Source: Apostichopus japonicus
Taxonomy: Eukaryota; Echinodermata; Holothuroidea; Aspidochirotida; Stichopodidae
Direction of reading: 5' to 3'
DNA: 64,000 bases
NCBI RefSeq assembly: GCF_037975245.1
Contig: NC_092575.1
Location: 5,387,501-5,451,500, forward strand
Part shown: piece after piece, positions 26,641 through 29,754 of the stretch
How the letters are laid out: the number at the start of each line of letters is the position of its first letter
Position numbering within the stretch: the stretch's first letter is position 1
Notes under the pieces: model-generated
What the model saw: the letters and a program-made list of their open reading frames with translations, nothing else
Databases searched by the model: none
What the model was told of the DNA's origin: nothing
Made by a program: the position numbers and the translations under genes

Positions 26641-26894
26641 TGCCTTGCTATATTAAGGATATTCCTTGAGATTTGATGGGTGGGGTACACCTCTAGGGTG
26701 ACATGTTATATCTGTGTCAATTTGTCAAAAGGGTTTGCGAGCAGTTATACAATGCGAATGTGTTCAAAAATTCCTAATTTAATGACTCTCTTCCTTCACC
26801 AAATCCCTTAAAAAACGATAAAGTGTATATTTATACATGGGAGTAATGCCTCGTAGGTTGATTAATGCTGTATGAAGAGGACGAGTGGACATAT

Positions 26895-29750
26895 GGGTCA
26901 GATCCAAAACCTGTCAACCTCAGGGCTAAAATTTAGATGATCATAGTTATCAATTTTGATAGTTTTGTCCAAAAGAAGAACAATTTAAGCTTGCTTGGCT
27001 AAAAAATTAAATTTGTATGTTTCTTTGTTAACGAGTACTGCTTAATTATATCAACAATGCACTTAAACGTTATGGACGGAAACAGCGTTATGGACGGAAA
27101 CAGCAATTTGTGCCACTGAACTGCAAGGAATGATGGAATTCACAGGAATCTGCACCTGAATAATTGTTTATGGTACTGATCTCTCCAAAATAGTTTTTGG
27201 AAAAATTAAGTAGGGCATCCCTAATTAAGATGCTAATCGAGAAGAAAATCATTAATTCCGTCCATAACGCTACCTGATGTCATTAATCTCCTGGCAATTT
27301 TAAAGTTCACTTCAGTGATAAAATTTGCATGTAATCTTCTGAAGGTTATCAATGCCATTAAGGATGAAGTGAAAAATTACCAGATTCTTGCATATTGATA
27401 AGCTGGGGTTCAATGAAACATCAGTGTTATGGATGGAATTAGGAAAACGTTATGGACAGAATGTGAATGTTATGGATGGAAATTACTTTCTTTGGAAAAA
27501 CTATGCAGAATGTTTTTTATTAAGTTAAATCAAAGACATCAAATGTGAATGAATGTTATTTAGGATGGAAAACCTTTTTTTACATGTACATTACAGTATT
27601 TTTCTAGGCTTTCAGGTGATGTTTTCCCTAATTTTAAAAAAAATAGAAAAGAAGAAATTTCTGTAAAAATCCCAAACTTTGAGGATTTTTCATTTCAAAA
27701 TAAGGCAAAACACCCTCCTGAAATTTTTTGAACAAACAGGGTGGTACTATATCTCTTCCAGAAAAAATTATCAGATTTTTTCAACATTATGCATTTTGAG
27801 TTATTGGCCGTCAAAGACGACCTCTTTTGTACATCAGAGCAGCTTTAACAACTTCTTAAATTATTATTGAGAACAGCTAGAACCCTGAAATTTGCTTAGG
27901 GGTAAGAACTTTATACTTATAGTTGAAGTATAAAACCATGACAGCTCTAACATGGTTACTTTGGTAAAAAATTGGCATCAAAACTCCTACCTCATGCTGA
28001 ATCGCAGCATGAAATAGCAACTTTAGAGTTGCACAACTTGCAAACATATCATAGGAAAGCATTGTAATTATTATTTTGTAATGTTTGTACCAGACATAAT
28101 AACCTCTGAAAGAATCAAGTACCCTGAAACAATGGTTTAGGAGCAATTCATCACTAAAAATAGCACATTTTTTAGTGAAAAGTACAAAAATCGTATATTT
28201 TGACACTTTTAAGTGGACCTAACTCCACAAGACAATATTTTTGTAGCCTAATTTTTTATTTTCCTATTCTACGGGATAGACTCTATTAGGCATCTGTAAT
28301 ACAAAGGTAGTAGAATGGTTAATTGCTGAGAAATGAGACCTCAAAAGTCAAGAAAATGCCTGGGTGGCGACAAATTGCGGAATTTCAAAGTGTGATAAAT
28401 CGGCCAATTGGAAAGCAATGCAACTGAAATTTTCAGAAAATGCTTATTTCATGATGGTCCAATCATACAAAAAATTTGGGAATTTTTGGAGAGGGTGCAG
28501 CAACAGCCATTCTTGATTTGACACGGAATGACCCTTATAAATCCAAGTTGTCATCCTTTATGCAACATGGTTTTTGTGTATGAAGGAGACTGGTGGTTGG
28601 AAAAGGTGGACCAAATATCAGTTGACAGTAATGATGTCTATGTCTCCTTCCTACACCCTAAGGGCCCTACCAATACTTTCTTCTGGCCATCACCTGAGAC
28701 AAATATCCCACTAGGAATGATCATGGGGAAACTAGAACAGCCTGTCCTCCTAATTTCAAGTAGCAAAGTGGGAATTGCAACAAAGGTGGTTGAATATATT
28801 AGGGACAAGTTTCAAAGAGATTGTGAGCCGTGATGGTGACGAAAAATTTTGACAAATATGAATCGATGTATTTTGTTGAGATTGAAAAGTCTATTTCAAA
28901 TTTTCATGACTGTTCAACCATACAGGCCTCCCATGTCCACAGTTTTATTTGCATGTGTTGTTTTCTTTCATACAAGCTTTGCAGACTGGTGAAACTTTGA
29001 TTGCATTGGCATTGTTTGAAGGAGGTGTAGCCACAAAAGTGAAAAAACCAAATGGGAAATGTACTGACAGCCTCTGCTTATAGTGCTGAAAGCCACCTGA
29101 TGAGTACCTTCAGCAATAGTGAAACTTTTCATGTGCTGTAGCAATTCATTTCAGGCTAATTCAATACTTTCCGTCCATAACATTCCGTCCATAACAATTC
29201 CTATTTCAGGACTAGCTCTTTCCCTTCTTATAATAGATTCAATTTTATTTGATATTATTACACATATTGGCCATAAGTATTAACTTATAACACACACTTC
29301 ACAATTCAAGAGTTGATCCTAAATCAGGACAAAACCTTCCGTCCATAACGTTGTACATTCCGTCCATAACACAGAATTTTGGTTTGGGGTAGTGGGTTAA
29401 TAGAGGTACATTGAAGATTATGAGTGGGAGTATGATAAAGCTAAGGTACCAGGCCTGTGATGAAAAGTACCTGATACTTTGAAATCCTGAACACTTCACA
29501 GAGTTTTGACCCACTATGAAGGTTGGTGGATATCGATCATTTTTCTGATTCCGTCCATAACGAACACCTAATTTGCATATACAGACTAATATTGCACTAC
29601 CCAATTAATTTTTTTCCGTTATATGGTAGAGGTATCCCAACTTAGATCAATCATGCATACCTTACCAAATACTAACTCACACTATTTTTGATGGGACTTT
29701 ATCTCTGTGAATTCCGTCCATAACATTGGCAGAGGTTTTGGATCTGACCC
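26895..29750. mobile_element. 2.86-kb TIR transposon with 12 subterminal 13-bp repeats
   Basis: A perfect 18-bp inverted repeat, GGGTCAGATCCAAAACCT, bounds the element (26895-26912; reverse complement at 29733-29750). It is flanked by ATAT on both sides (26891-26894 and 29751-29754). Inside, the 13-mer GTTATGGACGGAA or a one- to two-base variant occurs twelve times. The left cluster has six copies, five on the plus strand (27069, 27087, 27426, 27449, 27469) and one inverted (27256). All six copies in the right cluster are inverted (29169, 29183, 29337, 29358, 29549, 29712). One internal ORF (28528-28833) looks coding. TIRs, target duplication and subterminal repeats mark a DNA transposon; the superfamily is not assigned. 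Confidence 0.88.
28528..28833 (+). CDS. Transposon-internal ORF, C-terminal 'EGDWW...HPKGP...WP' domain
   Basis: An open frame of 101 aa inside the transposon at 26895-29750. From the second ATG it reads MVFVYEGDWWLEKVDQISVD, then VYVSFLHPKGP, NTFFWPSPETNIPL and further hydrophobic residues, ending SSSKVGIATKVVEYIRDKFQ...CEP. The pattern (Y-x-G/D-x-W-W ... V-x-F-x-H-P-x-G-P ... F-x-W-P) is one I associate with the C-terminus of poorly characterised transposon-linked proteins in invertebrates, possibly an SH3-like fold. It is likely the last exon of a longer, otherwise eroded or intron-split transposase-associated protein; upstream coding exons could not be found. Function unknown. Confidence 0.5.
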   Translation: MTLINPSCHPLCNMVFVYEGDWWLEKVDQISVDSNDVYVSFLHPKGPTNTFFWPSPETNIPLGMIMGKLEQPVLLISSSKVGIATKVVEYIRDKFQRDCEP

Positions 29751-29754
29751 ATAT

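Follow-up and report, generated by a model that had tools for sequence, protein, structure and literature searches.

What is the element that occupies positions 26895-29750 of the window, a 64-kb stretch of the sea cucumber Apostichopus japonicus genome (C15:5387501-5451500), and what part do the short oriented repeats near its two ends play in its movement? The element is 2,856 bp long, running from GGGTCAG at 26895 to CTGACCC at 29750. Its left terminal inverted repeat (TIR), GGGTCAGATCCAAAACCT, lies on the plus strand at 26895-26912 and is the end common to the copies; the right TIR matches it perfectly over all 18 bp on the minus strand at 29733-29750. ATAT adjoins both tips (26891-26894 and 29751-29754), and in these respects the first-pass annotation, which had described perfect 18-bp TIRs and ATAT duplications, was accurate. 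The left ATAT was assigned from the flanks of the copies and the empty sites of two other copies, the right one by flank comparison; because the target-site duplications (TSDs) vary among copies, ATAT is a true duplication rather than part of the TIR.

The whole genome (671,581,487 bases in 35 contigs) contains 70 occurrences of a 17-bp TIR with at most one mismatch, compared with 3 for a control. These comprise 33 facing pairs, the window element being one, and four lone ends. Full-length matches in a genome search begin and end some 10 bases or less from the TIR tips, so that other copies do end at the 18-bp repeats, as the original proposal needed them to. For 24 copies both ends could be read, and their 4-bp flanks are identical in 20, differ at one base in three (L026, L031 and L051) and at two in one (L025); two further fetched copies with an unreadable left end (L028 and the copy on C14) are outside this count. 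The identical flanks include ACAT, AATT, ATAT, TGTA, AGAT, TGGT, ACTT, GTAT, ACTA, AGTA, AAAT, AACT, ATCT and TTAT. Among 18 clean TSDs, 13 have the form ANNT and 7 the form AWWT, and none is TTAA.

Empty sites were sought for 13 of 23 joined sites, and 40 of 2728 candidate matches, covering three sites, were scored. The empty site for L014 (L056) is identical at 116 of 116 positions and that for L023 (L055) at 85 of 86, both without gaps and with a single copy of the 4-bp target, which bears out the predicted 4-bp duplication; these two empty sites are paralogous. The L017 empty site matches at 104 of 116 positions; one target base differs, and the alignment has a 6-bp gap on the right side of the junction. 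With L028, L031 and L032 excluded, the window copy and 17 other full-length copies share a mean identity of 98.6% (range 97.6-99.4%), and the recent movement first suggested by the intact termini fits this figure. The window element is thus a real, fairly young non-autonomous cut-and-paste DNA transposon. The termini, TSDs and empty sites are most simply explained by a DDD enzyme that cuts and pastes with a 4-bp stagger.

The coding remains of the window copy are slight. An open reading frame on the plus strand (28528-28833) encodes 101 amino acids from the ATG at 28528, or 103 from stop to stop, with the pattern EGDWW..HPKGP..FWP. It aligns with the C-terminal part of transposase fragments found in two family copies, on C7 and C14, downstream of SDGC..QFKS..HGKGPVDG. 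Those fragments in turn match intact relatives carrying a D-(75-86)-D-(36-41)-D signature. The window frame, which contains none of the three D residues, is by these alignments what remains of the C-terminal region of a DDD transposase; the frame picked out earlier has its 101 residues, and starts within a foreign repeat. That repeat fragment occupies 27658-28538, is 93% identical to L054 and is unaligned in L052, L053 and the C7 copy; the start codon of the frame falls inside it. Constraint on the frame is low, with 20 changes of amino acid against 7 silent ones and 2 to stop codons (ratio 0.76), which is what a remnant should show. The window frame and the fragments have no significant match in Pfam or PDB, the outcome of the profile search that had been advised for the frame. 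The C7 homologue of the frame has a Tudor-like Pfam match at E 0.083, under the curated cut-off. A single-sequence AlphaFold2 model of the window frame (mean pLDDT 44.9) was discarded.

The source repeat of the foreign fragment, at L054 (C2:31109900-31112900), consists of inverted arms of about 886 bp around an imperfect palindrome of about 350 bp; among the matches listed, repeats of the same type form opposite-orientation pairs about 1.3 kb apart on several chromosomes. L052 (2,729 bp) and L053 (2,730 bp) are family copies without the foreign fragment, and L031 and L032 represent a form of about 3.0 kb. The copy L051 (C22:25967028-25967742) is 715 bp with flanks TACT and TACC; it keeps all six right sites of the array described below and none of the left ones. 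The C7 copy (C7:4161880-4172100, L001/L002) is 10,010 bp long with the TSD ATAT. Two bases past its right TSD begins GGGCCATTCCACACCAAGTGGTCC, which closely resembles the right end of the related element L010, GGGCTATTCCACACCAAGTGGTCC, and this copy is read as having inserted in, or next to, a related element's target site. The C14 copy (C14:870400-882400, L003/L004) is also without the foreign fragment and is split by an apparent LTR retrotransposon whose 972-bp direct repeats are 99.9% identical. At C12:11475469-11518634, facing TIRs 43 kb apart enclose family pieces, either a heavily invaded copy or a macro-element.

The repeats near the ends are copies of the 13-mer GTTATGGACGGAA. With up to two mismatches it has 14 matches in the window, 12 inside the element and 2 elsewhere (1.15±1.19 expected); each of the 12 has at most one mismatch and each of the outside two has two. 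On the left, a copy at 27069-27081 (+) is followed by L1 at 27087-27099 (+, inward), L2 at 27256-27268 (-, outward) and the inward trio L3a at 27426-27438, L3b at 27449-27461 and L3c at 27469-27481 (all +). L3a and L3c are the one-base variant GTTATGGATGGAA, which is fixed in the family (18 of 18 copies), whereas the one-base variant at L3b is private to the window copy. On the right, all six sites lie on the minus strand and read inward: R4a at 29169-29181, R4b at 29183-29195, R3b at 29337-29349, R3a at 29358-29370, R2 at 29549-29561 and R1 at 29712-29724, the last 26 bp from the element end. The mirrored arrangement reported in the first-pass annotation thus stands, with five of six left sites inward and six of six right sites on the minus strand. 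Its count of twelve holds for this copy; the site at 27069-27081 is an 18-bp tandem duplication absent from 17 of the 18 aligned copies, and the family array is therefore one of 11 sites. The one- to two-base variants that it listed reduce to one-base variants at 27426, 27449 and 27469, no site in the element having more than one mismatch.

Genome-wide, the exact 13-mer occurs 313 times and a reversed-pattern control 15 times. Of 100 places listed from the 313, 92 are in TIR-bounded copies, 1 is beside a lone TIR and 7 are elsewhere, so that the motif is far from equally common outside such elements. Among the 18 copies, the motif columns vary least (mean 0.0012), the remaining columns of the subterminal 600 bp averaging 0.0055 and all columns outside motifs and TIRs 0.0078; the motif-column value was matched or undercut by 31 of 5000 random block sets. 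At every one of the 11 common positions the exact family sequence is present in 16-18 of 18 copies. We infer that the 13-mers are bound by the transposase, which would make them candidate docking sites.

The enzyme itself has to be sought among relatives. Comparison of copies had been proposed as a way to an autonomous member, and no intact transposase of exactly the window family came to light. The copies on C7 and C14 carry the C-terminus and the last two of the three D residues; no exon with the first D was seen in either. Genome searches with the C7 fragment, L011 and L009 recovered many related frames, several of which are uninterrupted along their whole length, with 930 codons in L005, 821 in L006, 818 in L007/L008, 737 in L009, 674 in L010, 862 in L035, 776 in L036 and 866 in L037. 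The pattern D-(75-86)-D-(36-41)-D is present in 10 of 11 loci scanned, the third D lying, by alignment, within HGKGxxDG; the locus missed, L012, has an in-frame stop between the first two D. Identity between transposase lineages is about 28-39%, and reaches 58-60% between L011 and the fragment of the window family. L005-L008 and L035-L037 make up a second lineage with long open DDD frames (776-930 codons), in which no two-sided arrays were detectable and ends were found only for L035; it includes near-identical duplicates, namely L007/L008 and 866-codon frames on C5 and C15.

A search that required a GG-starting TIR together with an exact 4-bp TSD gave the bounds of fourteen relatives (L009, L010, L011, L033, L035, L038, L039, L042, L043, L045, L048, L049, L060 and L061), and the ends of L009 and L011 are identical when searched for without the GG condition. 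Arrays are present in 12 of the 14, which fall into five families, or six with the window family; each of the five has an array of 8-10 copies of a motif of its own. L009 (4,617 bp, TSD AAAT, an open 737-codon frame) carries TGTGACGGACGTACA, L010 (3,820 bp, TSD ATTT, 674 codons) GTCACGTAAGTCACA, the group of L011 (2,920 bp, TSD ATAT), L033, L039 and L049 GCGAGGGACGGAAT, the L042 family GGTTACAGTGTGACA, and the group of L043, L045, L048, L060 and L061 GGTTACTCACGTTACA. The TIRs of the array-bearing relatives are 11-15 bp long and start with GGG, being imperfect in L009 and L010. De novo discovery was applied to 12 elements and returned a single array of 8-12 copies in 11 of them, the exception being L038. 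When the ends of six representatives were shuffled 15 times each with dinucleotide composition preserved, arrays never exceeded 3 copies, against the 8-12 observed; the arrays are thus not a product of chance.

Arrays are not general in the group. L035 and L038 are bounded and showed no array on scanning, and a spacing grid is accordingly not claimed for every relative. An array scan of 15 loci (L005, L006, L008, L012, L034-L038, L040, L041, L044, L046, L047 and L050) found none in 10, and in the other five the repeats were tandem or one-sided. L058, 65% identical to L009, retains the L009 motif, its ends not having been found; L059 gave neither ends nor a usable array. Weak end pairs in L034, L050 and a second L045 pair, as well as long inverted repeats in L012, were dropped.

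When the arrays are measured from the element ends, the six families agree closely. The right-type end has sites at 18.5±6.2 (R1) and 191.0±3.7 bp (R2) and a doublet at about 394±14 bp (R3); the left-type end has a site at 363.8±4.0 bp (L2) and a cluster at about 548±17 bp (L3). Extra sites occur at about 190 bp on the left-type end in two families, and at about 562 bp on the right in the window family alone. The steps are 163-180 bp from R1 to R2, 188-197 bp from R2 to R3 and 158-169 bp from L2 to L3. With R2 taken to define the inward strand of the motif, R1 and the two R3 sites also point inward, and L2 outward, in six of six families, L3 being variable. Scored with one representative per family and with positions entered by hand from array discovery, the cross-family grid reaches 0.874; shuffled gaps gave 0.519±0.061 and uniform placement 0.209±0.035, and none of the 5000 trials of either control did as well. 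The right-type end of L010 is upstream of its gene, and L010 was therefore reversed for scoring. This decision followed inspection of the positions, and without it the score is 0.63, inside the gap-shuffle range (maximum 0.741).

The common grid might reflect descent only, too few insertions and deletions having accumulated to disturb the spacing, with no ruler at work. Some motifs are indeed related: 5 of 15 pairs fall below p 0.03, those of the window family, L011 and L009 being related in the same orientation (p 0.0025-0.03). The L011-group transposase, as noted, is close to the window family's fragment, and the termini are alike in their GGG or GGGC starts. Over all 15 pairs, however, the same-orientation sum is 115 and the opposite one 104, and the opposite orientation fits better for L010-L009, L043-L009, L043-L010 and L043-L011; a single ancestral motif for all families is not claimed, with just five pairs below that p value and some better reversed. 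Two observations make simple descent an unlikely account. At E<=1e-3, blastn finds no similarity between the ends of different families save an 18-bp terminal match between L042 and L043, and outside the window-L011 pair the transposases have diverged to the 28-39% level, yet the best two anchors, R2 and L2, hold to a standard deviation of about 4 bp. Since the ends are unalignable across families and the distances are constant, spacing has been kept where sequence has not. The pattern suggests that the moving enzyme may measure its docking sites by a fixed ruler.

A more specific form of this idea is offered tentatively, at rather less than even likelihood. End recognition may need docking sites at fixed steps of about 160-195 bp, near the nucleosome repeat, with orientations telling left from right; the 8-12 sites and the DNA-binding domain of the transposase could then change their code together while the distances could not. 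On this view the enzyme might read the linker DNA that separates phased nucleosomes, or it might wrap the ends to form an ordered complex. Nucleosome-type WW dinucleotide periodicity was rejected as support, not being end-specific (shuffles were as high in 9 of 200 cases for the ends and 21 of 200 for the element middles), and the nucleosome idea therefore draws on spacing.

Taken as a whole, the window element is very probably a non-autonomous cut-and-paste transposon, most likely of the Sola2 group, moved in trans by the DDD transposase of a fuller relative. This reading is built on the exact termini, the 4-bp duplication, the near-identical copies, the transposase remnant and the site distances conserved over six families. 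The relative's transposase would cut at the TIR tips and dock on the array through a separate DNA-binding domain. Several protomers would assemble at about 18, 191 and 380-400 bp from one end, and at about 190 (in two families only), 364 and 530-570 bp from the other. With distances and orientations fixed (R inward, L2 outward), a right-type end would be brought together with a left-type one, and the left/right asymmetry would prevent the pairing of like ends. The duplication would arise when the ends are joined to ANNT-like targets cut with a 4-bp stagger.

The arrays could instead serve a host or transcriptional role, for example as binding sites for a regulator of the element's gene. In favour of such a role, the protein that reads the En/Spm subterminal repeats is described as also a suppressor and regulator (PMC2613891). 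Nevertheless, the sites are kept in copies unable to make transposase, to the extent given above for the 11 positions, and the 715-bp L051 retains a complete right set. They also stand at fixed distances from the cleavage points on both ends, and the motif differs by family, which is what reading by a protein of the element itself would predict. A regulatory role in place of docking is thus improbable, and transposase docking remains the preferred reading.

Arrays of short sites near both ends are known from other transposons, with which the sea-cucumber families share some features and not others. CACTA (En/Spm-type) elements have many short asymmetric motifs near both ends, bound by TNPA; the motifs have diverged from family to family, perhaps coevolving with the protein. 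These elements differ in having a 3-bp duplication and CACTA termini, and the accessible text of that account does not report fixed site-to-end distances across families (PMC2613891). Hermes, a hAT element, likewise has many short sites near both of its asymmetric ends, read by a separate BED domain, but its target is 8 bp and its 17 and 14 short-motif copies are crowded towards the tips (PMC10368747), whereas here sites of 13-17 bp recur at steps of about 160-195 bp. The P element and Galileo have internal transposase sites, and the spacing in P is unequal between ends; P duplicates 8 bp of target and has a 10-bp site near each TIR, and Galileo has three sites within a long TIR (descriptions in PMC7776569 and PMC3688188). 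The hAT and P groups were rejected, the duplication here being 4 bp and not 8 bp.

The superfamily is probably Sola2. Sola elements are described as having a DDD transposase and a 4-bp TSD (PMC10741241), and Sola2 of two amoebozoa AT-rich 4-bp TSDs (AWWT; ATAT, AAAT, ATTT) and TIRs of 12-21 bp (PMC3627910); Sola-2 is also listed for the sea cucumber Holothuria glaberrima (PMC13228809). The AT-rich 4-bp duplications, short TIRs and DDD transposase found here fit Sola2, the comparison being by description only (PMC10741241, PMC3627910); the AWWT form given for the amoebozoan elements is seen in 7 of the 18 clean TSDs, and the looser ANNT in 13. The array-bearing relatives differ in length, at 674-737 codons against 888 aa for the Dictyostelium protein (PMC3627910). 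The available portions of these Sola descriptions contain no subterminal site arrays, 'subterminal' in PMC3627910 referring to Helitrons. Eight proteins of relatives had nothing above cut-off in Pfam, and neither an alignment of six transposases nor the L005 protein found a relative in PDB, which leaves both the Sola2 name and an RNase H fold unproven.

The lack of a Pfam model also gives some ground to another superfamily with 4-bp duplications (Ginger, piggyBac or an IS481EU relative) or to an unnamed one. The defining target of piggyBac is TTAA. None of the 18 clean TSDs has that sequence, the termini are GGG..CCC and no piggyBac match was seen in Pfam, and piggyBac was rejected; Ginger was also rejected, as the eight proteins had no integrase match. 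Four-base TSDs are indeed given for Ginger1, piggyBac and IS481EU, but the termini described are CC..GG for piggyBac and TGT..ACA for IS481EU (PMC10045372). Assignment outside Sola2 therefore has a low probability, about that of the descent-only account of the grid.

Changing subterminal motifs are already known from CACTA elements; what is new is that distances are constant over six families while both the motif and the intervening sequence change. No report of fixed site distances across families was found in the accessible literature, outside which subscription papers largely fall, and this is short of proof that none exists. For a poorly characterised transposase group the analysis supplies defined termini, open genes in sister elements and candidate sites of binding. 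Were the ruler real, two questions could be tested directly: how recognition that depends on many sites acquires a new code, and whether transposon ends are recognised through nucleosome-scale spacing.
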